From Hanleya hanleyi (lineage: Eukaryota > Mollusca > Polyplacophora > Lepidopleurida > Hanleyidae): a DNA stretch of 64,000 nt. Both the position numbers and the translations under genes were made by a program. Positions within the stretch are counted from its first letter, which is position 1; every line of letters starts with the position of its first letter. The stretch is taken from assembly GCA_036873755.1 (NCBI GenBank), contig JAVTVY010017326.1, forward strand, positions 1 to 64,000. Reading direction: 5' to 3'. Positions 10,801 to 64,000 of this stretch are shown here, in pieces. The notes under the pieces were generated by a model, which saw only the letters and a list, made by a program, of their open reading frames with translations, was not told the origin of the DNA and searched no databases.

Positions 10801-13800
10801 GAACGTCGTGAACCCCGATGTCGACGAGAAGAGATGGATCGACGGCGTAAAGGTGACGGAGAACGTCGTGAATTTCTATGTCGCCGTGCAGGTGATCACG
10901 TCTGAAGATGTGGAGAACGAGATCGTTGAGTCAAACCTGGATCACGGTGTACTGGTGTGTGAAGACGGCGTGGCTGAGTAGGCATAGTGCGCAGTGGTTC
11001 ACGAGACCGGTGTAGACTTAGACGGGGTGGTGAACGGGATCGACGTTGATACCTATCATCACGTAAAGGTGAACGTGATGAATGATAATCTCGATGACGT
11101 CGACGTGAAGGAGATCGAGATCGGCGTTGGGAGGAACGAGATCGACGACGGGAATTACGGGAGCGTCGAGATGTTTTACTGTTCGACAGACGTGGGGAAA
11201 TTATGCGAGTCCCGGCAGATAATAGTCCAGCAGTCGCTACATTGGAAGGGGTCGCGGTGTCCACAATAATAGACGACACAGTAGGCTGTTGTTCTTCGCT
11301 AACAAAAGGCAGGTTTGGCTCAGTGGTCTTTCTCTTGCCTTTTGTTCTCTTGCCTTTGTTTCCCACTGCTTTAGTTGTACGTACAGCAGTGGGGACTGAT
11401 TGCGTAATTGGTATACCCGCTAACAGCTGGCCAGGTAGGTTTCCAACACGTATAGTGCCGCTTGGGGGAATTACAGGTGATATAGGTGACGAAAGATCTG
11501 TTATGTCTTCATTTATATTTCTATCCACTCCGAGATAAATTTCAGCTTGTTGTCGATCACTGGGTGCCAATTCCTCGTTTACTGCGGCATGCAGTAAGTA
11601 ACTCCGTCTGGCCTGTGCATAGTTGTACCAGGCTTGGTCGGGCCAAGCAATACAGTCAAGACACGTATTTTTCCTGTTACATATATGCATCTTACAAGAA
11701 AAACAAAGGGAATGTAAATCCAAACCAGACCAAGGTTGTCTGCAAGATGTGCAGAGCTTAGTATTCCTAGATGTTTTAGACATTGTTTTACAATGTAATA
11801 ATACTAGAGATAGACTGATTTCCCTAACAAGATAGGTAAAAAAAAATCAAATCTAATTCTTAGCAGAGCTTCTCTTAAACACGTCAGCACGCTGTGCTGT
11901 AGGAAGAAAAGTGATTTGGGTGAGTGTGTTTTGGGCGCAGGCGCAGTGTAACCTATTGGCGGAGTCTCCAGAGGGTGAGAATTTTTAATCTACAGCAGAA
12001 TCTCAAAGGAGGATTAGGGCAAATCATAGCAGGTGTAGATTTGAGCAATAAATACAACTGTTCTGGGAAATATTTTCACAGTTTTTGTCATTAATACCAC
12101 CATTCTTCTGGGGAATATTTTCACAGTTTTTGTCATTAATACCACCATTGTTTTGAGAAATATTTTCACAGTTTTTGTCATTAATACCACCATTGTTCTG
12201 GGGAATATTTCAGACTGTTGGGTTCCAAGGAGAAGGAGCTGGGTGATGCTGCCAATAAACTGAAGAATGGTCTGAGTAAGATTGACGACACACGAGAGAA
12301 GGTGGAGAAGATGTCCATAGAGTTAGAGGATGCCAAGGGCAAGGTCGCTCAATTCCAGAAACAGTGTGAGGAGTACCTGGTGATCATTGTGCAGCAGAAA
12401 CGCGAGGCCGATGAACAACAAAAGGTTACTACTATCTCTTTGAAGCTTCCAAAATGTTCACTACCTTCAGAGGTAGAATCCGATGGTCTGTTTCGAGGGT
12501 CATGTTCTGCAAGACAATGTCCATGTTGTATACTCTGGAGTGGAAGTCGGAAGAATTTTAGAAATATCCAGAACCTGTTTGGTCAAACTATTTATCCTGT
12601 AAATCGATGACTAATTTAGTACCTTGGCTTTAGTTGATAGCTGCGTGAAATACTAGGCTTGAATAGGAATATTGAGTGCATAAAATATGAGTGGTGCCAA
12701 GTTCATAGTTGTAGTTGTCATGGTTGTATTGTAGTCTGTGGCCCAGAAGAGTGAGAGGATTGCCGAAGAGGAGACCAAGTGTCAGCACATGGCAGACCTC
12801 GCTCAGTCTGACCTTAATGAGGCCCTGCCTGCCCTCGAGGAGGCTATCAAGGTATGCCCATCACCCTTTGATAATGTTCCCCTTATTGTCGTAGTTTTCT
12901 TCCTTGCTGTATCCATATAAATTAAGTATGCTGTCATTGATAATCAGGTCTTCAGAACAAAGTTTAGTTATTTTGGGAAAATATTTTCATTAGATTTGCT
13001 CATTCCGTTAAACCTTGATTCCCTCTCTCTCTTTCCTTTCTTGAACCTGGTCTATAGTAATTATTTGACTTGTATTCATTCCTTTGTCATCAGGCCCTAG
13101 AGTCCCTGAACAAGAAGGACATGACAGAGATCAAGTCATATGGTCGTCCACCCGCCTTGGTAGAGAAGGTCATGGAGGCTGTGATGATCCTCAGGGGTAA
13201 TGAACCAACCTGGGCAGAGGCCAAGAGACAGCTGGGTAAGTCACCTCATTAGTGGACATCCAGTTCAGTTTGTATCCTCTTTTATCACAGTGGCCAAAAT
13301 CGATGTGATACACTCATGTGATACGAAACCTGTATGACACCCTTACAATTTTAGTAAGTATCTTTCGATTAGTTTTCAATATTTCGATTTAAGAAATAAA
13401 TAATCATACTCTTGATCATTTATCTGATTTTTATAACATGCATATAAAACACGCTCAAGCTCATTCCATATTGGTTTTATCAATCTCGTGTGATAAAAAT
13501 CAGATAAATGACCACTCGTAGTGATAATCACTGTAACTGTTCATTTGTCGAAGAACTCAATTCACGCCCAGATTTCTTGATGACAATATGACAATGTTTA
13601 TTCGTGACAAGTGACATAGTTTGTGACCCATATTCATCGTTGCAGAATGCACGTGTAACACTAATATGTCCAGTTATACATGACACGATCGTTGAAAATA
13701 TTGTGAATTGTCCGAATGGCGAGCTGGCGAGATTGACTGAAAGAACCGCCATTTTTGCCACTGCGCGCTTGTACACACTGGCGAGACATGACAATACGAG

Positions 13801-25800: not shown

Positions 25801-28800
25801 AACTACATTCCAAGTCTGGGACAAAGCAGTGAAAAGCAAGGTTGAAAGCAATAAGTAGTTAGATGACATAAGTCTGTTCCTTAATGAATTAATCTGACAT
25901 CGAATAACCTCATTAAAGCTGGGTACAGAGTTAATCCCAAACAAAGTAGCACCACAGTTACCTGGGAAGTGCATTAACCACGTTCAGTGAAATGCATTGT
26001 ATGTCACACATTTTTTTCAAGTTACAAGTAGAGTACAAAGACCACAGATGGCTGCAGTAGATGTTATATAAGAATATGATAAGAATAGTTGCTTGTTGAC
26101 ATCTTGAGAAATCATAGAACTTGTGAGCCAAAATATTGGCCGGAATGGATAATTTTCTAATTTGCACAGACACATCATAGCTGTCAATGAGATCAGTGAA
26201 GATAAATGGCCCAGCTATTTGGTATTTGGCCAGACAGTTTAACAGAGGTGTTTTCAGGTCTTTTAACTTTTATGGATGAAACACGTGAATAAAGACAATA
26301 TCATTGTCAATTCCAAAACTGTCACATTTATCAAGTAGAGCATGAAGACCCTGGAACGCAACATGGCTAGGTGGTGCTTAGTTGGTTTGTCACAATATGA
26401 CTGAAATAATTTTGAAAGCTACATTAAATCCTATTCACTCACTCACTGACAGAGGGACTAACATGACTAATGGGGCATAAATAGTCAGCATATATTAGGT
26501 CATTAAAGAAGACTCCAGATATATTACATCTATGTTGGACCAAGATAAGATGTTTATGTTGAGTTCAGACATTAAATAATGGGGACAGAATTCCACATTG
26601 GCGGGCGCCCTTTCCGGCAGGGACTCTCAGTTTCAGGCCAGACAATAAGATAATAACTTTACCAATTGACCAATGTACACCCTGTGCATAGTAGGGGGGT
26701 TTACTGCATTCCGATTGTCCATCCGTCCATCCCTCTATGTGTCCGTGCAGCCATCTGTTTGCCCGTCTGAAATTTGTTTCCGTGCTTGAGCACCGTTCAG
26801 CGGATTCTTCTCAAAATTTTGACCACTGCATTTTGACCACTTTTGCAAATAGGTGGCCCCACCTGGTGGTTATACCCTACATGTATCTGCATTTTTGTGC
26901 TATAACTTGAGAACCTTTCATCAGATTCTTTATAAATTTGGTATGATGTATACGATGCCACGAGATGTTGCTTGGACTGGACTGTTAAGGGACTGAGGGG
27001 TGTAGCACCTCTGGTGCCTCATGTTTAAAACTTCCAAATATGACAGGAAATTCACTGTATGAAAGTTCATACAAATTAATATATAAATATTGTATGTGCT
27101 CTGCTATGGAGAGGAGATTGCACTATTCACATCAATGTAAGAAAGTTATTCACATGTCTAATCAGTGGTTATAGTGCTGAACTTGTTTATAATGTATGAA
27201 GTGTAATAATACAATTGATCATTGTGACTTCAGGATTTGGAGGAGCGTATGGGTTACCTAGTAGGAGACTGTCTGATCGCAGCGGCATTCCTCTCCTATA
27301 TGGGGCCATTCCTCTCTAACTACAGGGACGAGATTGTGCAACAAAAGTGGATGCAGGAGGTGGGTATACTGCTTTTTGATTGGACAGCTTTCTCACTGAT
27401 TGGCTGGACAATGTTAACACTTTATTACCTGAAAACTGCATCTCTGAATGATTAATTAAACAATAGCCTTTTTGCAGTTGAAATCTTTTTCTATAATTCT
27501 AATTTGATACAGACTGCTGCATTTCTCCCCATACTGCAAATTTAATGTTATCTTGCTAGAATCCTGAAGGGGTGGAGGAAAAACAATAAATTGTCTGAGA
27601 TTTGCACGTCAGTCAACTTTTGCCCATAATTATGCCCCCCCCCCTCCAATTAGACGGACGGACGGCATGATATTTCAGTGGGACAGCACTATAAAATGGC
27701 AGCATTAGATCTGCTCTGTTACAAGTAGGTACCCCTGCCCCTCCCCCTCCCTTCCCTTCCCCGTCGTGATATAGCTGAAAAAATGTTGAAAGCGACGTTA
27801 AACCCTATTCACTCACTCACTCCAATTAGACGGGGGGCATATAGCGATCGCTTTGTCCGTCTGTCCGTCCAAATTTCTTGTCCGCCCAATATCTCGGTTA
27901 ATATTTGATGGACAGGATTGAAACTTGCATGGAATGTGGCCAGTGCCTCGTAGTTGTGCAGCGTAGATTTTTCCGAGTTCCGGTATAATTTTCAAGAGTT
28001 ATGGCCCTTTTTCTGAAATCTCTGTGAATGGGGCTTGTCCGGGCTGGATCTTGGTTAATATTGTATGAACAAGTATGAAATTTGCATGATATGTGGTCAG
28101 TGCCCCACGGTTGTGCAGCGTTAAGTTTATTCCCATTTCGCTGATATTTCAAGAGTTATGGCCCTTTGTTCCTGAAATCTCCATGATTTGGGACTTGTCC
28201 GAGCTGGATCTCGGTTAATATTGTAGAGACAATTATGAAATTTGCAGAATATGTGGTCAGTGCCCTGTAGTTGTGCAGCGTGAAGTTTCTCCACGTTTCG
28301 CTTATATTTTCAAGAGTTATGGCCCTTTTTTTCTTCAGATTTTTGTGAATTGGGACTTGTCCGAGCTGGATCTCGGTTAATATTGTATGGACAATTATGA
28401 AATTTTGCAGGGTATGTGGTCAGTGCCCTGTAGTTAAGCAGCGTGAAGTTTGTCGACATTTCGCGTATATTTTCAAGAGTTATATCCCTTTTTTCTTCAA
28501 ATCTTTGTGAATTGGGACTTGTCCAGGCTGGATCTTGGTTAATATTGTAGGGACAATTATGAAATTTTCAGGATATGTGGTCAGTGCCGTGTAGTTGTTC
28601 AGCGTGAAGTTTCTCTACGTTTTGCGTATATTTTCAAGAGTTCTGGCCCTTTTTTCTTTAAATCTTTGTGAATTGGGACTTGTCCAGGCTGAATCTCGGT
28701 TAATATTGTATGGACAATTATGAAATTTGCAGGATATGTGGTCAGTGCCCTGTAGTTGTGCAGCGTGAAGTTTCTCTGCTTTCGGTTATATTTTTAAGAG

Positions 28801-31800
28801 TCCTTTGTTTATCAAACCTAAGTGAATGTGATATATTTAGTTGTCCAGGTTAAATCTCAGTCCATGAGCAAAATTCAAAGTTCACTGATCGCTTCATAAT
28901 TTCACCACAATTTTCTCCCAAGGAATGTAGGTCTCATAACCAGATCTCATAATCAGATTTTGTGAAAGCCCCGGCGACCATCTTGCATCAAAACATTGTA
29001 TTATCACTTGTTGGTCGATACTTGGAATATGTATTATGCGAGGCATGGCAAAAAAATTAATGGAACAGGGGGCGGGTGGGTCATACAATTGAGCAATCTC
29101 TGATTGCTTCCTTCCTGTGTTTCACTTGTTCATGGTATATCTTCACAGATGCATTTTATGATCAGTTACATACATTATGTGAAACCTGAAACATTTCCTT
29201 GACACAGGTGAGGAAACTAGGGGTTCCGTGTGCACCTAACTTCAATTTCTGTGAGTTTATGGTGAAGCCGACGCAGGTTCGAGACTGGAATATCCAGGGT
29301 CTGCCCAGCGACAGCTTCTCCACGGAGAATGGAGTTATTGTAACCACTGGCAACCGTTGGCCCCTCATGATTGATCCGCAGGGACAGGCCATCAAGTGGA
29401 TCAAGAATATGGAGTACTCAAAGGTATGATGTTCAGTGTTTAGCTGTTCCTGAATAATGTACATGGGATGGCGGGGGGGTGGGAAGACTATTCCGTTCTA
29501 TGGTATATGTGTGACGGGTGGTTACAGTCATTCAACATTAAGAAGATAGGATACATGAAATATGAGTGATTGTGGTCAGAAACAGTTATCTCCTCCCCCC
29601 TCCCACCCCATGTTCTTGAAACAGTCTTCAGTGACATGGCCAGAATTTAGAAAAGGGGGGTGTGAATTTTTTCAGCCAGATATGGTATTAACATCAACAA
29701 GCTTTCGATATCAAGAAATATTTGATCAAAGAGCTTTTATTGGGAGTATCTCATGAATTTCTTTATGATTTCTATCATTGTCACACCTATAGTTTGTTAA
29801 ATGTTTGTCAGTCTTCCATGGATATAGAATAGATACATATAAGATCTTTTCAGTATATTCCATGTTAATTTGTACCGTAAATAAACGGGATAAAGTAATG
29901 AGTTAAATCAGCACGAAACAATGTTGCCATATTATAACACGAAAACATTGACACCTTGGACTAAACAAATATATATACAATGTATGGTAGGTGAATGTGT
30001 TGTGTATTTTAGGACAGGATACACAAATATCCTGACTGCTAATGTTTTATGTTCTTATAATGTCAGACTCCAGATAAAGATTATTGTGTTGTTTTCTATA
30101 GGGTTTGAAGGTGATAGATCTCCAGCAGTCAGATTACATGAGGACCCTGGAGAGTGCCATACAGTTTGGTCTGCCTGTCCTCCTACAGAATGTTCAGGAG
30201 AAACTGGACCCCTCACTCGACCCCATCCTTAACAAGGCTATCATGAAAATTGGTCAGTTTTACAGTCTGTCCTATGTTCCTGGCCAACCATTGCAGCTTT
30301 TCACTCTCTGTTATCACACAGCGTTAAACCTTAATTCTCTCTCTTTCATTCTCTGTTATCACATGTTTCTGAAATTCCTGCATAGATATATTGTTAAGAT
30401 GTTTTTGTGTAATAAATTTTAAAGCTGAACTGCAAAGGGTTTTAGATTCTCCTTTACTTGTCTTATATAGGTTGAATAATGAAAGAAATACCACAATCAT
30501 GAGAGACTGGTGACCAGTTACCAGTGCACATCGTTCCAGGGTATCTGGGACGTCTGGTTAAACTCACAAATTGTGCTCTGACTTATAAGAGATTTATAGC
30601 TGGTATAGACATGATCTGCCTGGGAGACAAGGAGGGTAGATACTTAATGTAGGAAGCTATTATTGTCTGAGTCTTTGTGCAGTTGAAAAGACTCAAGTCT
30701 AGACACATTGTTGTCCCAGACTTGGCTATTGTATGCATTGTCTCATGATTCTTACATGGAGTATGAACCACAAGGAGGGGGGTATAACATTGATTATATT
30801 ACATGTATTAATGGAGTTCTGACTGAGGGAGTGTCGTTTGTTATTAATAGGGGGTATCTACATGATCCGTTTGGGAGACAAGGAGGTGGAGTATAACAAT
30901 GACTTCAGGTTCTACATCACTACCAAGCTGAGTAACCCTCATTACACACCTGAGATTGCCACCAAGGCCACTCTTGTCAACTTTGCTGTCAAGGAAGTCG
31001 GTAAGTCTGTCATTCTGGGCGAGAGAAGTACATAACATCTCATTGTACCACTTCAACCACTTACATTTCAATGGAATGGATTCTATGGGCTGTTCTGCTC
31101 ATATCGACAAAATACCTACATCTGGAGTGATCTATTCTGTGTTAACATTGTGAGGAAGACTACTGAGTTAAGTGCATAAAAATGTTGTAACGATGGGGAT
31201 TGGGATCAAAGCAAATGTTCATCTGTGAAGAGTTGTTAATACAGAGTATATGATTGTAGCTTTGGAGGCCTAGTTACTAGGTATAGTGGTTAATTCTGAG
31301 TATATGATTGTAGGTTTGGAGGCCCAGTTACTGGGTATAGTGGTTAATACTGAGTATATGATTGTAGCTTTGGAGGCCCAGTTACTACGTATAGTTGTTA
31401 ATACTAGGTTTGAACCGTCGTGATATGACTGAAACAGTGTTGAAAACGACGTTAAATCCTACTCACTCACTTGTAGGTTTGAAGACCCAGTTACTAGGTA
31501 TAGTGGTTAATACAGAGTATATGATTGTAGGTTTGGAGGCCCAGTTACTAGGTATAGTGGCTAATACAGAGTATATGATTGTAGGTTTGGAGGCCCAGTT
31601 ACTACGTATAGTTGTTAATACAGAGTATATGATTGTAGGTTTGGAGGCCCAGTTACTAGGTATAGTGGTTAATACAGAGTATATGATTGTAGGTTTGGAG
31701 GCCCAGTTACTAGGTATAGTGGTTAATACTGAGTATATGATTGTAGGTTTGGAGGCCTAGTTACTAGGTATAGTGATTAATTCTGAGTATATGATTGTAG

Positions 31801-34800
31801 GTTTGGAGGCCCAGTTACTAGGTATAGTGGTTAATACAGAGTATATGATTGTAGGTTTGGAGGCCCAGTTACTAGGTATAGTGGTTAATACTGAGTATAT
31901 GATTGTAGGTTTGGAGGCCTAGTTACTAGGTATAGTGGTTAATTCTGAGTATATGATTGTAGGTTTGGAGGCCCAGTTACTAGGTATAGTGGTTAATACA
32001 GAGTATATGATTGTAGGTTTGGAGGCCCAGTTACTAGGTATAGTGGTTAATACTGAGTATATGATTGTAGGTTTGGAGGCCCAGTTACTAGGTATAGTGA
32101 TTAATTCTGAGTATATGATTGTAGGTTTGGAGGCCCAGTTACTAGGTATAGTGGTTAATACAGAGTATATGATTGTAGGTTTGGAGGCCCAGTTACTAGG
32201 TATAGGGGTTAATACTGAGTATATGATTGTAGGTTTGGAGACCCAGTTACTGGGTGTAGTTGTTAATACAGAGTATATGATTGTAGGTATTTGGAGACCC
32301 AGTTACTGGGTGTAGTTGTTAATACTGAGTATATGATTGTAGGTTTGGAGACCCAGTTACTGGGTATAGTGGTTAATACAGAGTATATGATTGTAGGTTT
32401 GAAGACCCAGTTACTAGGTATAGTGGTTAATACTGAGTATATGATTGTAGGTTTGGAGGCCCAGTTACTTTGTATAGTGGTTAATACTGAGTATATTATT
32501 GTAAGTTTGGAGGTTCAGTTACTGGGTATAGTGGTTAATACTGAGCATATGATTGTAGGTTTGGAGGCCTGGTTACTAGGTATAGTCGTTAATACTGAGT
32601 ATATGATTGTAGGTTTGGAGGTCCAGTTACTAGGTATAGTGGTTAATACTGAGTATATGATTGTAAGTTTGGGGGCCCAGTTACTAGATATAGTGGTTAA
32701 TACTGAGTATATGATTGTAGGTTTGGAGGCCCAGTTACTAGGTATAGTGGTTAATACTGAGTATATGATTGTAGGTTTGGAGGCCCAGTTACTGGGTATA
32801 GTGGTTGATACAGAGTATATTACTGTAGGTTTGGAGACCCAGTTACTAGGTATAGTGGTTAATACTGAGTATATGATTGTAGGTTTGGAGGCTCAGTTAC
32901 TGGGTATAGTGGTTAATACCCCCCGACACGTAGTGTAGGGGGCGTATACTGGTTTCAGCTTGTCCGTCCGTCTGTCCGTCCGTCCGTCCGTCCGTCCGTC
33001 CGTCCGTCCGTCCGTCCTTCCGTCCGTCCGTCCGTAACATTTCGTTTCCGGAGCATAACTTGACAACCGCCAGTTGGATTCCTCTCAAATTTGGTATGCA
33101 GCTACCATACCATGAGACCTTGCTTGGGATTGCGTTTGGCGCATGTGCGTCTACAGGTGGCGCCACCTAGGGTCATTCCGTAACATTTCGTTTCCGGAGC
33201 ATAACTTGACAACCGCTACTTGGATTCCTCTCAAATTTGGTATGTAGCTACCTTACCATGAGACCTCGCTTGGGATTGCGTTTGGCGCATGTGCGTCTAC
33301 AGGTGGCGCCACCTATGGTCAAAAGTTTCTCATGTCAGTCCGTAACATTTCGTTTCCGGAGCATAACTTGACAACCGCTACTTGGATTCCTTTCAAATTT
33401 GGTATGCAGCTGCCATACCATGAGACCTCGCTTGGGATTGCGTTTGGCGCATGTGCGTCTACAGGTGGCGCCACCTAGGGTCAAAAGTTTCTCAAGTCAG
33501 TTCGTAACATTTCGTTTCCGGAGCATAACTTAACAACCGCTACTTGGATTCCTCTCAAATTTGGTATGTAGCTACCTTACCATGAGACCTCGCTTGGGAT
33601 TGCGTTTGGCGCATGTGCATCTACAGGTGGCGCCACCTAGGGTCAAAACTTTTTCTTGTCGGTCCGTAACATTTCGTTTCCGGAGCATAACTTGACAACA
33701 GCTAATTGGATTCCTCTCAGATTTGGTATGTAGCTACCTTACCATGAGACCTCGCTTGGGATTGCATTTGGCGCATGTGCTTCTACAGGTGGCGCCACCT
33801 ATGGGCAGAATTTTCTCAGTTGGTCCGTAACATTCCATTTCTGGAGCATAACTTGACAACGGCTACTTGGATTCCTTTCAAATTTGGTATGCAGCTGCCA
33901 TACCATGAGACTTCGCTTGGGATTGCGTTTGGCGCATGTGCGTCTACAGGTGGCGCCACCTAGGGTCAAAAGTTTCTCAAGTCAGTTCGTAACATTTCGT
34001 TTCCGGAGCATAACTTAACAACCGCTACTTGGATTCCTCTCAAATTTGGTATGTAGCTACCTTACCATGAGACCTCGCTTGGGATTGCGTTTGGCGCATG
34101 TGCATCTACAGGTGGCGCCACCTAGGGTCAAAACTTTTTCTTGTCGGTCCGTAACATTTCGTTTCCGGAGCATAACTTGACAACAGCTAATTGGATTCCT
34201 CTCAGATTTGGTATGTAGCTACCTTACCATGAGACCTCGCTTGGGATTGCGTTTGGCGCATGTGCGTCTACAGGTGGCGCCACCTATGGGCAGAATTTTC
34301 TCAGTTGGTCCGTAACATTCCATTTCTGGAGCATAACTTGACAACGGCTGATTAGATTCTTCTCAAATTTTGTATGTAGCTGCCATACCATGAGATCTAG
34401 CTCAGGATGTTGCATATGCGTCTACAGTAGTAAGTTTAATATTTCACTTCCCATTTACTTCCTTTTCCTCTTCAATGTGGTTATCCAGATGACAGTAATT
34501 CGCCTATCTGTTGCAACAGCCCATTTCAAGTCTACACGGTTCTAGTGGTAACAACAGTTAGGTAAAACACAATATGCCTGCATAACCCCATTCTCAACAA
34601 TCATTATTAACATCAATTTTCTGAACAATCCATTAAACTCATCTGAGTATCGTCACGACACATGCATAGACAATCCGTTAACCGCACTCCAACCGAGCGA
34701 GGTCTCATTGTCAACTAGTTACATACTGTGCCGCCACTCATAACATGTATACTTATATTCCTCTACAAATACTCGTCAATTTCTATCAAATGTGCATCCG

Positions 34801-37800
34801 GGGGGTATCTTGTAAGCATGCTTACTGATGATTTCCACTGCCACAATCCCATTCAGCTTACTTGTGAAACGTTAACCACCCCCATGTATCTATGCCCTTA
34901 CGGGGGGTATCTTGTAAGCAGACTTACTGATCATTTTGATCAAATGTGTGCATCCCTCAGACTATGCTCTAGTTGCAGGTTTGGGGACCCAGTTACTGGG
35001 TGTAGTTGTTAATACAGAGTATATGATTGTAGGTATTTGGAGACCCAGTTATTGGGTATAGTGGTTAATACTGAGTATATGATTGTAGCTTTGGAGACCC
35101 AGTTACTAGGTATAGTGGTTAATACTGAGTATATGATTGTAGCTTTGGAGGCCCAGTTACTGGGTATGGTGGTTAATACTGAGTATATGATTGTAGGTAT
35201 TTGGAGACCCAGTTACTAGGTATAGTGGTTAATACAGAGTATATGATTGTAGGTTTGAAGACCCAGTTACTAGGTATAGTGGTTAATACTGAGTATATTA
35301 CTGTAGGTTTGGAGGCCCAGTTACTGGGTATGGTGGTTAATATTGAGTATATGATTGTAGCTTTGGAGGCCCAGTTACTAGATATAGTTGTTAATACTGA
35401 GTATATGATTGTAGGTTTGGAGGCCCAGTTACTAGGTATAGTGGTTAATACTGAGTATATGAGTATATGATTGTAGGTTTGGAGGCCGAGTTACTGGGTA
35501 TAGTGATTGATACAGAGTATATTACTCTAGGTTTGGAGACCCAGTTACTAGGTATAGTGGTTAATTCTGAGTGTATGATTGTAGGTTTGGAGGCCCAGTT
35601 ACTGGGTATAGTGGTTAATACTGAGTATATTATTGCAAGTTTGGAGGTTCTGTTACTGGGTATAGTGGTTAATACTGAGTATATGATTGTAGTTTTGAAG
35701 GCCCAGTGACTGGGTATAGTGGTTAATACTGAGTATATTATTGTAAGTTTGGAGGTTCAGTTTCTGGGTATAGTGTTTAATACTGAGTATATGATTGTAG
35801 GTTTGGAGGTTCAGTTACTGGGTATAGTGGTTAATACTGAGTACATTATTGCAGGTTTGGGGACCCAATTACTGGGTGTAGTTGTTAATACAGAGTATAT
35901 GATTGTAGGTATTTGGAGACCCAGTTACTGGGTATAGTGGTTAATACTGAGAATATGATTGTAGCTTTGGAGACCCAGTTACTAGGTATAGTGGTTAATG
36001 CTGAGTATATGCAGGGATTCATAGAAGTCCAAATTTTTTACAGTCAAATTGAGTTAAAATAAAATTTATCGGCATTTTTTCACCTAAAATTGAGTATATA
36101 AATTTTTTACAAACCAGGGTCATTTTTTCCCCCTGAAGTTGAGTATATATTTTTTTCACAAACCAGGGTAAATGTTATCATCTTTGAACCTTGTCTACTG
36201 TTACCAATTCATGTATTTTTAACCTTTTGTGTAATTAAAATCATTTTGTGTTGTTGATTGCTTTTACTCATTTTCCATCATTATGTTGTCAGCAAGAAAT
36301 GATGAAAAACAAAATCATACTGGTTTATAAAATAGTTACACTATGATTGTATTGGATTCCACAAATAATAGGAAACTTGATGATGATATTGTTTTCATAG
36401 AATATTGTTAACAAAAAAACGAAACACTTCAAAAACGCTTGCAAATCGACCGTCTATGTCGCGGCAGGAAGAGTTCACTCCCTTGTCATGTGCTCAAAAC
36501 GCACGCTGTACGGTCGTGTCAACTTAAGTTTGATCAAACCAAAGTGAAAAAACTATTTTCTCAAGACAGACCACACAGAATACACGAAGAAATACTTACG
36601 ATTGGCATTCTACGAAAACAACGTGTGTTTATTCAGTTTCGTTTGTATCTCCCTGCGTTGGAACTTGGAAGGAACGAAAACGAAACCAAACAAAAATGGC
36701 GACTCGTCGATTGTTCGAGTGAAATTACGGTTAGTAAGTATTCGGAATTCTTTCACGGAAATATACGTCGATGTAACTAAAATTACCTCGGATAAACCAG
36801 TCTCAAATGAATATATCCCGTTAACAGACTAAGTCGCCCGAGGTAAATTCAGAGCAGTTGACGGTGTTTACATTTGACGTTGTTGTTGCTGCCGACAGAT
36901 TCACATGTGCTTCCACGACCATGAGACGATTTCCCGACAACCGGGTATTGAAATTTCGAATTTACGAAGCTTGAAAATTCAGTTTCCGAAGCTTGAAAAT
37001 TCAGTTCCCAACACACAAATTGAGTATAAATATTTTTTGGAAAACTGTTGATTTTTTACTAAAAAAATTGAGTTTTGAACTGAAAAATTGAGTTTTAAAA
37101 CTCAATCTACGAACCGAAATTCGGTACGTAAAACTGACGTGTATGAATCCCTGATATGATTGTAGGTTTGGAGGCCCAGTTACTAGGTATAGTGGTTAAT
37201 ACAGAGTATATGATTGTAGGTATTTGGAGACCCAGTTACTGGGTGTAGTTGTTAATACTGAGTATATGATTGTAGGTTTGGAGGCCCAGTTACTAGGTAT
37301 AGTGGTTAATACAGAGTATATGATTGTAGGTTTGGAGACCCAGTTACTGGGTGTAGTTTTTAATACAGAGTATATGATAGTAGGTATTTGGGGACCCAGT
37401 TACTGGGTGTAGTTGTTAATACTGAGTATATGATTGTAGGTTTGGAGACCCAGTTACTGGGTGTAGTTGTTAATACAGAGTATATGATTGTAGGTATTTG
37501 GGGACCCAGTTACTGGGTGTAGTTGTTAATACTGAGTATATGATTGTAGGTTTGGAGACCCAGTTACTGGGTGTAGTTGTTAATACAGAGTACATGATTG
37601 TAGGTATTTGGGGACCCAGTTACTGGGTGTAGTTGTTAATACTGAGTATATGATTGTAGGTTTGGAGACCCAGTTACTGGGTGTAGTTGTTAATACAGAG
37701 TATATGATTGTAGGTATTTGGGGACCCAGTTACTGGGTATAGTGGTTAATACTGAGTATATGATTGTATGGTTGGAGGCCCAGTTACTATGTATAGTGGT

Positions 37801-40800
37801 TAATACTGAGTATATGATTGTAGGTTTGGAGACCCAGTTGCTAGGTATAGTGGTTAATACTGAGTATATGATTGTAGGTTTGGAGGCCCAGTTACTAGGT
37901 ATAGTGTTTAATACAGAGTATATGATTATAGGTTTGGAGGCCCAGTTACTGGGTATAGCGGTTAATACAGAGTATATTACTGTAGGTTTGGAGACCCAGT
38001 TACTAGGTATAGTGGTTAATACTGAGTATATGATTGTAGGTTTGGAGGCCCAGTTACTTTGTATAGTGGTTAATACTGAGTATATTATTGTAAGTTTGGA
38101 GGTTCAGTTACTGGGTATAGTGGTTAATACTGAGTATATGATTGTAGGTTTGGAGGCCTGGTTACTAGGTATAGTCGTTAATACCGAGTATATGATTGTA
38201 GGTTTGGAGGTCCAGTTACTAGGTATAGTGGTTAATACTGAGTATATGATTGTAAGTTTGGGGGCCCAGTTACTAGATATAGTGGTTAATACTGAGTATA
38301 TGATTGTAGGTTTGGAGGCCCAGTTACTAGGTATAGTGGTTAATACTGTGTATGTGATTGTAGATATTTGGAGACCCAGTTACTGGGGATAGTGGTTAAT
38401 ACTGAGTATATGATTGTAGCTTTGGAGACCCAGTTACTAGGTATAGTGGTTAATACTGAGTATATGATTGTAGCTTTGGAGGCCCAGTTACTGGGTATGG
38501 TGGTTAATACTGAGTATATGATTGTAGGTATTTGGAGACCCAGTTACTAGGTATAGTGGTTAATACAGAGTATATGATTGTAGGTTTGAAGACCCAGTTA
38601 CTAGGTATAGTGGTTAATACTGAGTATATTACTGTAGGTTTGGAGGCCCAGTTACTGGGTATGGTGGTTAATACTGAGTGTATGATTGTAGCTTTGGAGG
38701 CCCAGTTACTGGCTGTAGTGGTTAATACAGAGTATATGATTGTAGGTATTTGGAGACCCAGTTACTAGGTATAGTGGTTAATACAGAGTATATGATTGTA
38801 GGTTTGAAGACCCAGTTACTAGGTATAGTGGTTAATACTGAGTATATTACTGTGGGTTTGGAGGCCCAGTTACTGGGTATGGTGGTTAATACTGAGTACA
38901 TTATTGCAGGTTTGGGGACCCAGTTACTGGGTGTACTTGTTAATACAGAGTATATGATTGTAGGTTTGGAGACCCAGTTACTGGGTATAGTGGTTAATAC
39001 TGAGTATATGATTGTAGGTTTGGAGACCCAGTTACTAGGTATAGTGGTTAATACTGAGTTTATGATTGTAGGTTTGAGGGCCCAGTTACTGGGTATAGTG
39101 GTTAATACTGAGTATATTATTGTAAGTTTGGAGGTTCAGTTACTGGTATAGTGGTTAATACTGAGTATATGATTGTAGGTTTGGAGGCCCAGTTACTAGG
39201 TATAGTGGTTAATACTGAATATATGATTGTAGGTTTGGAGGCCCAGTTACTGGGTATAGTGGTTAATACTGAGTACATTATTGCAGGTTTGTGAACCCAG
39301 TTACTGGGTGTACTTGTTAATACAGAGTATATGATTGTAGGTTTGGAGACCCAGTTACTGGGTATAGTGGTTAATACTGAGTATATGATTATCGGTTTGG
39401 AGACCCAGTTACTAGGTATAGTGGTTAATACTGAATATATGATTGTAGGTTTGGAGGCCCAGTTACTGGGTATAGTGGTTAATACTGAGTACATTATTGC
39501 AGGTTTGGGGGCCCAGTTACTGGGTGTACTTGTTAATACAGAGTATATGATTGTAGGTTTGGAGACCCAGTTACTGGGTATAGTGGTTAATACTGAGTAT
39601 ATGATTATAGGTTTGGAGACCCAGTTACTGGGTATAGTGGTTAATACTGAGTATATTATTGCAGGTTTGGGACCCAGTTACTGGGTAGTGGTTAATACTG
39701 AATATATGATTGTAGGTTTGGAGGCCCAGTTACTGGGTATAGTGGTTAATACTGAGTATATTATTGCAGGTTTGGAGGTACAGTTACTGGGTATAGTGGT
39801 TAATACTGAGTATATGATTGTAGGTTTGTAGGCCTAGTTACTGGGTATAGTGATTAATACTGAGTATATTATTGCAGGTTTGGAGGCCCAGTTACTAGGA
39901 ATAGTTGTGAGGAAGGAGAGACCAGAGCTGGAAGAACAGAAGGATAGTCTGGTAAAGAGTATCGCGGCAGGCAAGAAAAAACTTGTCGAATGTGAGGATG
40001 AGATTCTGAGGTAAGTATAGTTCACACCAGCATAAATGATACTTTGGTGACATATGTTAACAACATCAATGTGAATCACAGGTGATTACAGAAGTCTAAT
40101 TCATGAGTGGGTGTCATTAAAAAGGGACCAGTTTCAAGTTGACCGGCCGATTTAAAAGGAAATGAAAAACTTCATGATCGGTCAGAAATACGGCAATGTA
40201 GGATTTTCAAGCAATTGCGGATTTTATAAGAAGGCCCATTGAAAATGAGATGATAAATGCATGTTGTTGGGTTCATAAACATCATCCCGGCCTGAAAACA
40301 ACAGGATGTCTCTTATCACTTTTGAGTTCGAGTTGCATTGAAGTGGACAGATATAGTGCGAATCCCAGCTTTGCTATAATTGAAGTTAATCCGTAGACAA
40401 AACTATCTTGCCCTGATAGCAGCGGGCGGTGCACTGACATGTTACTGATCACATGAGTTCTTGTTCATTATTCGGGTTGCACTGCTATCTCTTTAACCTA
40501 GGAAATTTATTTGATGAATGATAACACGACTATTTTCGATCGGAACTTGTCAAAATTATCATTAATGTAAACTTAAAGGTCCAGGTTTCTTGGAAGTAGG
40601 CCGATAATTTGGTCCATATCCATCATATTTACTCCAGTTGTCAAGTTACACCCCTCCCCTCCCCTCCCTCCCCCCCATGTTAAAGAGATAGGAAAGAGAG
40701 AGGTTGAATGAACTGCTATCTTAATGCACCTGTCAAAGGATTAACTTGAATTTTGTACAAGTCGAGAATTGTTGTCAATTCTAGGTTGCTGAATGAGACG

Positions 40801-52800: not shown

Positions 52801-55800
52801 CTGAATAGATTTCCTTCGAATTTCAGAATAAAAATGCACAAATTACATAGAGATACTGTGGGGAATTTCACTTCTCTGAGATGAACTGGCTCCGATATTT
52901 AGCCGAAAATCCCATCCCATCGTGATACAGCTCAGTAACTCTAGCCGGTTGTAGTTATTTCTTTCATCCCATGGGCCATGTGTAACATTTAAAAAAATTA
53001 TATTTTTTTTCTTAAAAATATATAAAACAGGGGTTGAATTGTGAATAATATTGTGAATATTTTTTAATAATAATTGTTTGTTTCACGTTAACATCAACTG
53101 CTTGACAGGATATGGGGCAACAGATAAACAGAGGACAAATGGACAAAAGGCCCGTCCGACACTTAGTTTCAGGCCAGGGCAATAATATCACAAATGTACA
53201 TGTTTTTTCCCCCTGTAGATATGTGGATACCTGGTCACTTTTTACCCCTCGGCCAAAATTTGGCCGAAGGGTATTGTCGACGTCATGTACGTCCGTCCGT
53301 CTGTCTGTCCATCCGTCTGTCCGTCCCACCTTTCTCGTTACCGAAATATCTTTAGAACGACTCACCCTAGGCACCCCAAACTTGCACTGCACATCCATAT
53401 GCTCATGACCCAGAACCCTATTGAATCTGGACCTGATTGGTTGGAAACTTTGGTGGCCATATTTAATTTATGCGAAATCATTAATCTTGTGTATCTTAGG
53501 TACCATTTCACTGTTCCGTGTGTGAACTTGGTATAGATCATCGATGCATCAAGAAACTTCAAAGGAATGACCAACCCAGTTTCCCTGATTCGGTGGAAAC
53601 CTTGGCGGCCATCTTTAATTTATGCAAAATCTTTAATGATATATATCTTTGATACCATTCAAGTGTTCTATACGAAACTTGGTATACAGCATCGATGTAT
53701 CAAGAGACCTGCAATGTATAACCACATCAGTTCCTCTGAGTGGCGGGAAGGATGGGCGGCCATCTTCAATTTATGCGAAATCATTAATGATCTCTATCTC
53801 TGATACCGTTCGAGTGCTCGATGTAAAATTTGGTATATATCATCGATGCATCAATAGACTTACGATAAATGACAGTTCTGGTGTTTCTGATTGGGCGGAA
53901 ACCTTGGTGGCCATCTTTAATTTATGCAAAATCTTTAGTGATGTATATCTTTGATACCATTTCAGTGTTCTATATGAAACTTGGTATACAGCATCGATGT
54001 ATCAAGAGACTTGCAGTGAATAACCACATCAGTTCCTTTGAGTGGCGGGAAGAATGGGCGGCCATCTTTAATTTATGTGAAATCATTAATGATCTCTATC
54101 TCTGATACCGTTCAAGTGCTCGATGTAAAATTTGGTATAAATCATCGATGCATCAATAGACTTACGGTAAATGACAGTTCTGGTTTTTCTGATTGGGCGG
54201 AAACCTTGGTGGCCATCTTTAATTTATGCAAAATCTTTAATGATGTATATCTTTGATACCAGTTCAGTGTTTTATATGAAACTTAGTATACAGCATCCAT
54301 GTATCAAGAGACTTGCAATGAATAACCACATCAGTTTCTCTGAGTGGTGGGAAGGATGGGTGGCCATCTTTAATTTATTCGAAATCATTAATGATCTCTC
54401 TCTCTCTGATAACTTTCAAATGCTCGATGTAAAATTTGGTATACATCATCGATGCATCAAGAGACTTATGTAATGAATACCGGTTTCTCTGATTGGACAA
54501 AAACTTTAGAGACCATTTCTAATTGCAAAAATTTTCATAATCTGTATATTTGTCACTTGATTGCTTGGTGTTCCTGAAGTCTTGGTTCAAATTGAATATA
54601 TTATGAATGGCTGGTGCCCAGAGCCGAGGGGTTTTCAGATGCGCAGCTTCGTATTATACCCCTGTACATAGTTGAGGGTATACTGGATTCGGACTGTCTG
54701 TCCGTCCGTGTGTCAGTGTATCCATCCATTCATTTGTCTGAGTTCTGGCTTGGGTTTGCTTTTCGCATGCCATAACTCACTGCTATTTATCCAAACTTCT
54801 ACACCCATAAAAACATCTTGGTCTAGACTGTTAAGGGGCTGAGGAGTTGTAGCACCGCTGGTGCCTCATGTTTATCCAGTTGTAGTCTAGATGCCTAAAA
54901 CAAATTAGTTGTCTCGGCCCATATTTTATGGAGTTATGCCCCTTTCGGATGTAATAATCTCCGATTTGGTGATCTGTAGTTGAATGTACAAGTTATATCT
55001 TCAGATCCGTGTTCGGTACAGCTGCTAAATTTTGGAAACTTGTTTATCTGGTTGTATTCTAGAAGCGTACAAAAAAAAAAACAACGTCTCGGCCCTTTTT
55101 ACCTCTCAGCCCATAGGGCTGTGGGGTCTTGTCGTTGCCATGTACGTACGTCCGTCCGTCCGTCCTAGCGTCCGTCCGTCAACATGTTCTTGTCCGCTGA
55201 ATATCTGTAGATCTATGAAGTCGGGCCTGACCAAACTTTGGTGAGAGCTTCCTGAATGTTGACTGATGAAATGATTAGATTTACAGATGGCTATGATGAT
55301 TTCATGATTTTTAATTTTTTTTTTATTATTTATTGATGGCTCAGCTTTTGCACTGTTATCTATGCCCATCAACATGCTCTTGTCCGCTGAATATCTGCAG
55401 ATCTATCAAGTCTGGCCTGACAAAACTTTGGTGAGAGCTTCCTGAATGTTGACTGATGAAATGATTAGATTTTCAGATGGCTGTGATGATTTCATAATTT
55501 TTAATTTATTTTTTTATTATTATTTATTGATGGCTTAGCTTTTGCACTGTTATCTATGCCCATCGGGAACCCCTGGTTGCATGTTTCAGTGTGAATTTTA
55601 AAGCTTCCCTGATACAAGAAAGCCTGGTCCATTCAAGATTCTCATTCAATGAAGGACAACATTTTTCTTTAATTTTGCTATTAAATCATTCTATTCTACA
55701 TCATATGATTTATCCTAAAACTTTTGCATGAACCATATTTGTGTCCACACATTCAACTGGTACAACATAATGCTTCAATTTTTGTCACCAAACATGTTAC

Positions 55801-58800
55801 TGTACCTTGGAAATTATTTAAAACGAGTGATTAGGAGAACCCATTTTTAGCCTGACTCTGGGCAATTTTGAACCAGTTTGCATACCTGGAGCTTATGCCC
55901 CCCCCCCCCCAAATAATGATAAGGGTGGGCCTGTGTCAATCAGTGTGTTTACTTGTTATCACACTTGTGCAATGCATAAACTGCCACTGATAGAGCTACA
56001 CTTTCTTGCATGCTGTAATCCCAGCACACCACTCGCGTGAAACTGAAGTCTGTTATATACGGTATCCAAGGATTTTTTGCAGGTTCCGATCCCAAACTCC
56101 CAGTTCCTTTTCTTAATTCATTATTGAGGGTCCAATTTTTTTAAGTGAATTTCGGCGCAAAGAAACTGTGATCAATCACAAAACAGAGGTTTATTAACAT
56201 GAAATTCAATACACAGCTATGCAATCAGATCGATATTGAGGTTCCCAGAAGCTTTTCTAGGAGTATTTCCTTCAGAAATCCTTTCAAATTGAACAACAAC
56301 AACACTTTCGATTTTTTGTTTCATTTGAGTTTTGGGCGCCCATATGTTTTCCGAAACTAAATTGGCTCTAGATGCAGCCCTGATCCTACTTGACTAAAAA
56401 AAACAGGCTGAGGGGTCCACGCACCTTTTAGGTGCTTGCCTGCAATTCATGTTTTATGGAGTTCTGCCCCTTTTCAGGTGTACTAATCCTGGATATGCTG
56501 GAATATAAGCAGTTATATTTGAAGAACTGTGCTACCAAATTTTGGAAACTTATTAATCTACTTGTATTGTACAAGCTTACAAAAAATTATTCATCTCGGC
56601 CCTTATTTTACAGAGTTATGACCCTTTTTTGTGTATTAATCTAGATATGATTTTGTGATATATATTCTTGAATGTAGCTGTTATATCTGCAGAATTGATG
56701 ATATTCTCTAAAAAGAATAATTCCGGATGATTATATAGCCATAATATGTTGCACATTCTCAGCATATTTCTCATATGCTTGAGGGAAGCCGAGGGGTTTT
56801 GTGAGTCAAGCCCTCATGTCTAAAGCTACCGGGAGACAAATTACTTCAAATAAAACCAAAAGAAGTCAATAAGCTGATAGTTCCAACATTCATTAACTCA
56901 TGTAGAACATGAAAAGGAAAAAATGAAACATTTGAATTTCACATTTAACCAATAATAAATGATGGCTTTTACTCATAGCTTTTTGTTGGTCTTTCATGTA
57001 AGGTTCTATTGTTCAGGCCTTTATATTAAGCATCCCATCTAGACTCATTCTTGTACTTAGACTATTGACAGACTATTGTTCTTCTTTGTCTATGGCACTC
57101 GCATGGAAGATGGACCTAGCTTTATTTTTGTTTAGACTTGTTTGAACGAATTAATTGTCATTCCAAATGAATGAAAACACTAGAATAAAAATTAATTAAT
57201 CCGGCATAATCTACCTTTGATGACTGAATTGTGTGTGTAATGTTGATTTTGATTGTGATCTGGTTACAGGTATCTGAGAACTTGTTGAGTATATACCTGG
57301 ATGAATACTTGGACACTCCTTGGGACGCCCTCAAATATCTCATCGCAGGTATCAACTATGGAGGTCATGTAACAGATGACTGGGACAGACGTCTCCTCAT
57401 GACCTACATCAACAGCCTGTTCTGTGAGCCTGCCATCTCCGCAGCCTTCTTCAAGTGAGTCCTCCCTGACCGTATATTGTACTTGATATCACAATTTAAT
57501 GTGGCATGAGGATCACCCTCAACCAATGCATTGTAATAGCTTACATTAGTCAGCTAAACCTTTACCACCTCAAATCGACTCAAATAAATGGGAAAACCAA
57601 CAAAAACCAATCTTTGAATGTTTTGCCTCAGTCTATGGAACCTGTTCTAATTAATGTTCATGTTTTACTATTATTGTTCACACTTGAAAGGACACTTATA
57701 TCCCAGATGATCAGACAATGATATTTGAATGCCTGTCAAAAGACAATCTCCCCATCCATTGAGTTCACTGATTCACATAGTTTGTTGATTTGTATACTGT
57801 ATTTTAGCTCAGATGGGCACTTCCAGCATACTCTCCCGCTCATCACAGATATGTTGAAACCTGCACTTGTATGCTATTAGTTCAAACCGAAATGTGGTCT
57901 TTGGAAATCGGTTATAAAGAATTCACTGCAGCTAGATTTCAAACCGGAATGAAGTCTTTGGAAATTATTATGCCCCTCCTCTAATTAGAGGGGGGGCATA
58001 TAGCGATCGCTTTGTCCATCCGTCCGTCCGTCTGTCTGTCCGAATTTCTTGTCCGCGCGATATCTCGGTTAATATTTGATGGACAGGATTGAAACTTGCA
58101 TGGAATGTGGCCAGTGCCTCGTAGTTGTGCAGCGCAGAGTTTTTTCGAGTTCCGGTATAATTTTCAAGAGTTATGGCCCTTTTTCTGAAATGACTTGTCC
58201 GGGCTGGATCTTGGTTATTATTGTATGGACAAGTACAAAATTTGCATGATATGTGGTCAGTGCCCAACAGTTGTGCAGCAGAAAGTTTCTCCCCATTTTG
58301 CTTATATTTTCACGAGTTATGACCCTTTGTTCCTGAAATCTCAGTGAATTGTGACTTGTCCGGGCTGGATCTTGGTTAATATTGTATCGACAATTTTGAA
58401 ATTTGCAGGATATGTGGTCAGTGCCCTATAGTTGTGCAGCGTGAAGTTTCTCCATGTTTCGCATATATTTTCAAGAGTTATGGCCCTTTGTTCTTCAAGT
58501 CTTTGTGAATTGGGACTTGTCTGGGCGGGATGTCGGTTAATATTGTATGGAACAGTATGGAATTTGCAGGATATGTAATCGGTGCCCTGTAGTTGTGCAG
58601 CGTGAAGTTTCGCGTATATTTTCAAGAGTTATGGCCCTTTGTTCTTGAAATCCTTGTGAATTGGGATTACTTGTCCGGGCTGGATCTCGGTTAATTTTAT
58701 ATGGACAAGTATGGAATTTGCATGATATGTGGTCAATGCCCCATAGTTGTGCAGCGTGAAGTTACTCTGCTTTCGGTTATATTTTCAAGAGTTATGGCCC

Positions 58801-61233: not shown

Positions 61234-64000
61234 GTAAGTACCACATTAATTCTCAGATGGGCTGGTGCATGTATTTATTCTGGTGAGACACTCAGGTGGA
61301 ACAGGGTCTGTATTAGGTCTAGCAAGGTACCCAAGTCGGATAGTGTATGTACTTAGTCTAACCGGATACTTGAGTGGGACAGTGTATGTACTCAGTCTAA
61401 CCAGATGCTTGGGTGAGACAGTGTATGTACTTAGTCTAACCGGACACTCGGGTGGGACAGTGTATGTACTCAGTCTAACCAGATGCCTGGGTGAGACAGT
61501 GTATGTACTCAGTCTAACCAGACAATTGGGTGAGACAGTGTGTTATGTATGTACTCAGTCTAACCAGATGCTTGGGTGAGACAGTGCATGTACTTAGTCT
61601 AACCAGACACTCGGGTGAGGCAGTGTATGTACTTAGTCTAACCAGATACTTGGGTGGGACGGTGTATGTACTAAGTCTAAGCAGGTACTTGGGTGGGACA
61701 GTTCATGTACTTAGTCTAACCAGACACTTGGGTGGGACAGTTCATGTACTTAGTCTAACCAGACACTTGGATGAGACAGTTCATGTACTTAGTCTAGCCA
61801 GACACTTGGGTGGGACAGTTCATCTACTTAGTCTAACCAGACACTTGGGTTGGACATTGTATATACTTAGTCTAACCAGACACTTGGGTGGGACAGTGTA
61901 TGTACTTAGTCTAACCAGATACTTGGGTGGGACAGTGTATATACTTCGTCTAACCAGACACTTGGGTGGGACAGTGTATGTACTTAGTCTAACCAGATAC
62001 TCGGGTGGGACAGTGTATATACTTAGTCTAACCAGATACTTGGGTGGGACAGTGTATATACTTAGTCTAACCAGGCACGTGGGTGAGACAGTGTATGTAC
62101 TTAGTCTAACCAGATGCTTGGGCAAGATAGTATATGTACTTAGTCTAACCAGACACTCGGGTGGGACAGTGTATGTACTTAGTCTAACCAGACACTTGGG
62201 TGAGACAGTGTATATACTAGACACTTGGGTGGGGCAGTATATGTACTTAATCTAGCCAGACACTTGGATGGGACAGTGTATGTTTTTAATCTAACAAGAC
62301 ACTTGGGTGGGACGGTGTATGTATTAAGTCTAAACAGACACTTGGGTGGGACAGTTCATGTACTTAGTCTAACCAGACACTCGGATGGGACAGTGTATGT
62401 ACTAAGTCTAACCAGATACTTGGATGGGACAGTGTATGTACTTAGTGTAACCAGACATTTGGGTGGGACAGTTTATGTACTTAGCCTAACCAGACATTTG
62501 GGTGGGACAGTTTATGTACTTAGTGTAACCAGACAATTGGGTGGGACAGTGTATGTACTTAGTGTAACCAGATACATGGGTGGGACAGTTTATGTACTAA
62601 GTCTAACCAGACTTTTGATTGAAGCAGGGTTTGTACTTAGTCTAACCAGACTTTTGAGTGAAGCAGGGTCTGTACGTAGTCTAACCAGACACTCGGGTGA
62701 GACAGTGTATCTACACTTAGTCTAACCAGACACTTGGGTGGGACAGTGTATGTACTTAGTGTAACCAGACACTTGGGTGAGACAGTGTATGTACACTTAG
62801 TCTAACCAGACACTTGGGTGGGACAGTGTATGTACACTTAGTCTAACCAGACACTTGGATGGGACAGTGTATGTACTTAGTCTAACCAGACACTTGGGTG
62901 AGACAGTGTATGTACACTTAGTCTAACCAGACACTTGGGTGAGACAGTGCATGTACACTTAGTCTAACCAGACACTTGGGTGGGACAGTGTATGTACGTA
63001 GTCTAACCAGACACTTGGGTGGGACAGTGTATGTACACTTAGTCTAACCAGACACTTGGGTGAGACAGTGTATGTACACTTAGTCTAACCAGACACTTGG
63101 GTGAGACAGTGTATGTACACTTAGTCTAACCAGACACTTGGGTGAGACAGTGTATGTACACTTAGTCTAACCAGACACTTGGGTGAGACAGTGTATGTAC
63201 ACTTAGCCTAACCAGACACTTGGGTGAGACAGTGTATGTACTTAGTGTAACCAGACACTTGGGTGAGACAGTGTATGTACACTTAGTCTAACCAGACACT
63301 TGGGTGAGACAGTGTATATACTTAGTCTAACCAGATACTTGGGTGAGACAGTGTATATACTTAGTCTAACCAGACACTCGGGTGAGACAGTGTATATACT
63401 TAGTGTAACCAGACACTTGGGTGAGACAGTGTATGTACTTAGTCTAACCAGACACTTGGGTGGGACAGTGTATGTACTTAGTCTAACCAGACACTTGGGT
63501 GAGACAGTGTATGTACACTTAGTCTAACCAGACACTTGGGTGAGACAGTGTATGTACTTAGTCTAACCAGACACTTGGGTGGGACAGTGTATGTACACTT
63601 AGTCTAACCAGACACTTGGGTGAGGCAGTGTATGTACTTAGTCTAACCAGACACTTGGGTGGGACAGTGTATGTACACTTAGTCTAACCAGACACTTGGG
63701 TGAGACAGTGTATGTACTTAGTGTAACCAGATACATTGGTGGGACAGTGTATGTACTTAGTGTAACCAGACACTTGGGTGGGACAGTTTATGTACTTAGC
63801 CTAACCAGACATTTGGGTGGGACAGTGTATGTACTAAGTCTAACCAGACTTTGGATTGAAGCAGGGTTTGTACGTAGTCTAACCAGACACTTGGGTGAGA
63901 CAGTGTATGCACTTAGTCTAACCAGACACTTGGATGGGACAGTGTATGTACTTAGTCTAACCAGACACTTGGGTGAGACAGTGTATATACTTAGTCTAAC
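61229..64000 (+). repeat. 39/41-bp minisatellite starting at the exon 27 donor
   Basis: Roughly 70 units to the window end. The 39-base type contains acagtgtatgtacttagtct then aaccagacacttgggtggg; the 41-base type has tgtacactt and dominates from about 62700 to 63700. The first units are the most diverged and begin in the last bases of exon 27: acagt|gtaagtacc there against acagt|gtatgtact in the units, 12 of 14 bases. The 39-base type is open in several frames on both strands, so long frames here are artefacts. Confidence 0.93.

Follow-up and report, generated by a model that had tools for sequence, protein, structure and literature searches.

In cis-competition constructs with duplicated splice sites, reportedly designed by Reed and Maniatis in 1986, near-identical sites are said to compete, with the exon sequence deciding between them; to our knowledge, the choice of a 3′ splice site has been tested mostly with a few competing sites in constructs. 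The Drosophila genes kl-3 and kl-5 reportedly have giant introns that contain satellites, which are not known to be built of the gene's own splice sites, and intron 7 of human F7 is said to hold a few copies of a repeat, versus the ~100 units of the locus described here. A review describes these as 37-bp repeats with a donor in the first one, only the most upstream, exon-proximal site being used normally, which was ascribed to oriented scanning (PMC6627357). Intron gain by tandem genomic duplication of AGGT is described as the making of a new intron inside an exon (PMC3443670). The present locus lies in a stretch of 64,000 nucleotides from the polyplacophoran mollusc Hanleya hanleyi (GenBank assembly GCA_036873755.1, contig JAVTVY010017326.1, positions 1 to 64,000 of the forward strand), hereafter the window, which contains the 3′ part of the DNAH2 gene on its + strand; all features below are given on that strand. 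One DNAH2 intron holds an array of 54-bp units, each of which joins a copy of the intron end, splice acceptor included, to a copy of the start of the next exon. It is probable, judging from the sequence, that the array arose by a duplication bounded by the six-mer AGTTGT and by subsequent amplification, and that it is tolerated through exon definition and nonsense-mediated decay.

As with kl-3 and kl-5, the gene codes for an axonemal dynein heavy chain and has an intron expanded by tandem repeats, although the intron here is only 8.9 kb long, and in comparison with the Reed and Maniatis constructs the competition is natural, with 88 decoys in one gene. What the decoys have in common with the live site is a branch-point-like sequence, an acceptor and up to 31 nt of exon, whereas exon body, donor and distance set them apart. 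Local signal and exon context are separated in one natural pre-mRNA, which makes the locus a natural test of splice-site choice. The likeness to F7 intron 7 is that the tandem repeats carry the splice site itself (PMC6627357), in head-to-tail units of tens of bp and in many copies (96 full ones of ~54 bp), the exon-terminal copy being live by the conserved protein join. F7, however, repeats a donor, whereas an acceptor is repeated here together with 31 nt of coding exon, so that the array is an acceptor-side mirror of the F7 type and not a member of it. With the AGGT gains (PMC3443670) it has in common that AGGT-type sequence is present in more than one copy, but here an old intron grew. No earlier report of an acceptor-side array was found in literature searches, whose coverage left out most subscription journals.

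The host gene was identified from 27 exon peptides, picked by eye from the open frames, which when joined are co-linear with residues 2799-4297 of the DNAH2 chain 9fqr_D0 (4,424 residues; 2490 bits); the second-best chain, 8j07_k9, is likewise DNAH2. An AG acceptor was assigned for all 27 exons and a donor for 23 of them. The peptide around the array finds its best matches in the same two chains (9fqr_D0, E 6.9e-99; 8j07_k9, E 5.5e-97) and falls in Pfam AAA_9. Upstream of the array lies the 13th exon located in the window (30851..31000), which ends in AAG GAA GTC G and is followed by gtaagt; then come the array-bearing intron of 8,877 nt (31001..39877), with the live 23-nt tail TAATACTGAGTATATTATTGCAG (39855..39877), and the 14th exon, of 133 nt (39878..40010), which is shown to be coding by its match to DNAH2. 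Its first 31 nt (39878..39908) are the part copied in the units.

A period of 54 was found by Tandem Repeats Finder at 31231-32919, 34973-36011 and 37154-39905, and a chance origin of the array is excluded by the periodicity itself. The units form block A (31231..32919), block B (34973..36011) and block C (37154..39877), the last of which reaches the live acceptor. The three blocks total 5,452 nt and the two large inserts between them (32920-34972 and 36012-37153) another 3,195 nt; the ~8 kb at which the original prediction had put the array is thus right as a span but not as repeat content. The alignment of the units has 104 rows, i.e., 96 full units, 5 partial ones, two that are broken by a fragment resembling a short interspersed nuclear element (SINE), and the live exon. 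It confirmed the proposed make-up of the unit, which, read from the border, consists of GTTTGGAGGCCCAGTTACTGGGTATAGTGGT (31 nt, exon start) and TAATACTGAGTATATGATTGTAG (23 nt, intron end); 81 of the 96 full units are 54 bp long and 12 are 56 bp long, by way of two extra border bases. The claim that 29 of the 31 exon bases match was too high, the consensus being equal to the live exon at 28 positions and the full units being identical to it at 27.1 of 31 on average, with 14 of 96 reaching 29. At 89 of the 101 unit borders examined the AG is kept, the live site being one of them, which leaves 88 decoys. The TTAAT upstream of the AG fits a branch-point consensus, and the unit therefore resembles a full acceptor module. 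The 23-nt tails of decoys 39665 and 39770 are identical to the live one, so that three full units have it exactly, namely the two decoy units (the second at 39716..39769) and the unit that ends at the live site. This last unit (39824..39877) reads TTG TAG GCC TAG, with two stops in the exon frame, and is followed immediately at 39878 by the live exon, as had been predicted. An alternative source of the 54-bp repeat would be a dispersed satellite or mobile element, which would have acquired the exon border and spread either from this locus or to it; the window does contain many other arrays and inserts. This appears improbable: neither strand of the window has a further copy of the unit, even when up to 6 substitutions are allowed per 27-nt half, and a conserved DNAH2 exon accounts for 31 of the 54 bp, so that the exon came before the repeat.

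Both edges of the array are in the same phase, and each has an AGTTGT: the left one (31231..31236) is shared with the exon at 39903-39908, and the right one (39903..39908) stands where the exon similarity stops. This points to one tandem duplication of the microhomology type between two AGTTGT six-mers. In the ancestor they would have been separated by 54 nt, the first ending 23 nt short of the acceptor and the second at exon position 31; such an event would explain both the unit and its phase at the two ends. It would have copied the end of the DNAH2 intron and the start of the next exon together, after which the unit was presumably amplified to ~100 copies, pierced by mobile elements and left to drift as non-coding DNA. 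We infer an ancestral intron length of ~259 nt; a 6-nt microhomology across a splice junction could accordingly seed a repeat by which an intron grows about twentyfold with its coding exon intact. A tandem duplication across the intron–exon border followed by amplification was what the original prediction had proposed, and the unit make-up, the same-phase AGTTGT edges and the relatives described below support it.

How the live acceptor might be chosen was approached with a weight matrix made from the 26 other acceptors of the same gene and with donor scores from its 23 donors. The live acceptor scores 8.9, more than 24 of the 26 others when each is omitted from the matrix. For the 89 unit-border acceptors the median score is 6.3, with four decoys at or above the live value. 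A sharper difference lies in what the units did not copy. The exon body (39909..40010) has 11 purine-rich hexamers in 102 nt versus 10 in 5,442 nt of array, and 5 purine runs of at least 6 nt versus none, and the live donor (GAG, then GTAAGT at 40011..40016) scores 13.4, the highest among the 23. GTs that reach the lower quartile of real donors are less frequent in the array (2 of 688) than in other introns (2.2% of 1,452). When 19,280 candidate exons of 50-300 nt were scored, the top five all ended at 40011, the live exon sharing first place and one of the five starting at an AG inside the last unit (39832). Only three unit-border decoys, 39824, 39770 and 39716, come within 300 nt of this donor (187, 241 and 295 nt), among 15 AGs in all that precede the live one in that range. 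The question raised in the original prediction, of how splicing picks the last acceptor, becomes smaller on closer inspection.

The array is probably tolerated because the units copied a branch-point-like UUAAU together with an AG and left out both the purine-rich exon body and any donor. The splicing machinery would start from the strong donor at 40011 and define the exon as far as the acceptor closest to it, and therefore only about three decoys would compete at all. For large introns in human, one study finds the sites closest across the exon to be preferred (PMC9225289). No convincing RNA fold was found in the last units with the exon (z -1.84) or in the inner units (z -0.02), and no Rfam family reached the gathering score in 30900-40100.

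Several points weigh against this explanation. The purine-rich hexamers were counted with an informal list, and all scores were derived from a single gene, with 26 acceptors and 23 donors. Among the 679 AGs of the intron, 12, the live site included, reach the live score (1.8%, versus 0.6% of 1,268 in other introns), so that the live site does not stand out by local acceptor strength. Both array GTs with scores like those of real donors (39287 and 39824) fall in the last 0.6 kb. The decoy exon 39770-40010 ties with the live exon at 22.2 and differs from it only in length (241 versus 133 nt), and length or proximity must therefore make the final choice. The best exon wholly within the intron scores 17.0, which is inside the range of the 23 real exons (15.2-23.3, itself inflated as most of these were in the training set). 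For F7, oriented scanning and not exon definition is credited (PMC6627357), and a simple 5′-to-3′ scan would take the first decoy here. Human 3′ splice-site data of the study cited above favor upstream sites overall, a tendency that is lessened but not removed by exon definition (PMC9225289), and another study reports that concurrent occupancy of two alternative 3′ sites on one RNA inhibits splicing (PMC5389562), for which reason many decoys might be costly.

What the use of a decoy would cost can be read from the frames. All 88 decoys would give a stop at least 55 nt before the end of the exon, 28 of them being in frame with the exon and 60 out of frame; the first stop met falls in the last unit (39824..39877) for 9 of the 88. 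A premature stop would thus be present in every transcript spliced to a decoy, and nonsense-mediated decay would be expected to remove such RNA before it could give an altered motor protein. Six of the 81 units of 54 bp contain a stop, and the last unit alone has two.

A recursive splicing staircase, in which AG followed by GT at the unit borders would let the intron be removed stepwise, seems very improbable. The array has AGGTTT 68 times, 11 sites read TAG and then GTATTT, and a real GTATTT donor does exist at 50859 (score 6.0), but the two common donors that would be regenerated score low, at 2.0 for TAGGTTTGG and 5.5 for TAGGTATTT versus 6.2 for the lower quartile of real donors; recursive sites with a strong regenerated donor were thus not found at the borders.

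Relatives were gathered in two protein searches (the best 120 of 413 matches and the best 120 of 221, i.e., 240 listed), some of which are other dyneins; they are open reading frames cut at stops, in which arrays deeper in the intron, or arrays with stops near the border, would be missed. The motif GLxxQLLG, with which the live exon starts, is present in 185 of the 240, and none of the 240 has a second copy of it or an NTEY-type tail. In 60 of the 240 the upstream exon end and the GLxxQLLG start are both held, and in all 60 they are directly joined with no insert. The second set has the motif in 118 of its 120 members: in 84 it is directly preceded by at least 6 unrelated residues, apparently intronic translation (median 16), in 13 it is joined to the upstream exon, and the remaining 21 are too short for this to be judged. 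This shows the intron position to be old, with no repeat beside the exon in these 84 relatives. Intron gain by tandem duplication, i.e., a new intron at an intronless site, does not describe the locus, the intron being old (84 of 118 motif records). The residue at the junction, before GLEAQ (30998-31000 and 39878), is V here; it is Q in most joined relatives (36 of 47 in the first set, 7 of 13 in the second) and V in 4 of the 13 of the second set.

The units themselves evolve in a manner that can be followed along the array. Neighbouring units are weakly more alike than others (a mean of 4.9 differences at lag 1 versus 5.2 overall), and two block copies, 5 and 6 units long, were found. The original prediction had suggested asking whether units near 39.8 kb root with the exon, and they do not: the 5′ block is slightly more exon-like (27.9/31, versus 26.9/31 in the last block of 24 units), and unit position is negatively correlated with exon identity (Spearman -0.33, p 0.001, n = 96). 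The rise in exon similarity toward the 3′ end that was looked for is replaced by the opposite trend, which does not fit a recent seeding of units from the live exon. In six units an exact GTAAGT occurs (32501, 32663, 35743, 38090, 38252 and 39122, none past 39122); there the last base of the acceptor has changed from G to A, which turns the decoy acceptor into a donor-like site with a score of 6.0.

In the exon-like part, minor bases make up fractions of 0.091, 0.039 and 0.090 for codon positions 1, 2 and 3, a pattern by which the array is not evolving as coding sequence. This bears on the proposal that the units code for an 18-residue repeat included in some DNAH2 isoforms, for which it speaks that 54 is divisible by three and that long open stretches are present. 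However, the 12 units of 56 bp shift the frame, 19 of the 96 units have a stop in their own phase, changes are not in excess at third positions, the 60 relatives that show the junction have no insert, and the translated array matched no protein at E 0.001 among 7,995 candidates scored. A coding tandem repeat was rejected on the frame shifts, the stops and the codon-position pattern, and we give this proposal hardly any credence.

A different possibility is that the decoys are an active regulatory device, which binds U2AF/U2 or feeds unproductive splicing to decay, with the copy number setting the DNAH2 output. It could act as a splicing rheostat, the near decoys diverting a fraction of the transcripts to decay and the distant ones occupying early splicing factors, and, if variable in copy number, tune that output. 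Both the device and its rheostat form are considered unlikely, although they would be in keeping with the 88 retained AGs, the two decoys with the exact live tail, the one that ties with the live exon, the premature stop in every decoy product, and the inhibition reported when two alternative 3′ sites are occupied at once (PMC5389562). In the two AG columns, 2 and 8 of the 96 units deviate, versus a column mean of 5.8, i.e., they vary like other columns, and the decoy AGs look neither kept nor removed by selection, though unit-to-unit exchange could blur such a signal. Given these ordinary AG columns and the lack of the repeat among the listed relatives (best 120 of 413 and best 120 of 221), there is no sign of decoy preservation, and toleration through exon definition and decay is still the explanation that we favor.

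Three inserts interrupt the array. The smallest (31395..31472, approximate limits) breaks two units of block A and is SINE-like. The second (32920..34972) splits the array and contains (GTCC)n and internal repeats of 162 bp. In the third (36012..37153, ~1.1 kb), inverted ends were read by eye as CAGGGATTCATA/TATGAATCCCTG, and ATATG is a candidate for its target duplication of 5 bp. The two unlike elements and the SINE-like piece presumably entered after the array had been amplified. Internal repeats of ~151-162 bp are also found at 27891-28801, 53443-54467 and 58191-58824, so that one gene has several such stretches, which resemble molluscan pearl/Helitron-like elements.

Other tandem repeats of the window lie near live splice sites of the gene. 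A 45-bp repeat with 3.4 copies (12059-12213) continues directly into the live acceptor for the exon at 12214; three of its copies carry AATATTTTCACAG versus the live AATATTTCAG, and no exon sequence is copied. Similar-looking sequence near 5700-5769 suggests that this repeat may be a dispersed element. At 61262-64000, a 39-bp array (69 rows from 61301) begins ~28 nt past the donor at 61234 and runs off the window, its units holding ACAGTGTATGTAC, which is near the live ACAGTGTAAGTAC. Only 2 of 500 shuffles reach the similarity of the 39-bp unit to donor 61234, and one of 22 other donors scores the same; a donor-side origin of this array would be possible but is equivocal and is not claimed. 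At the other end of the window, within 3-1500, the open frames at 3-194 and 960-1151 are nearly identical, which suggests a direct duplication of ~957 bp; each half contains a 35-bp array (191-422 and 1144-1380).

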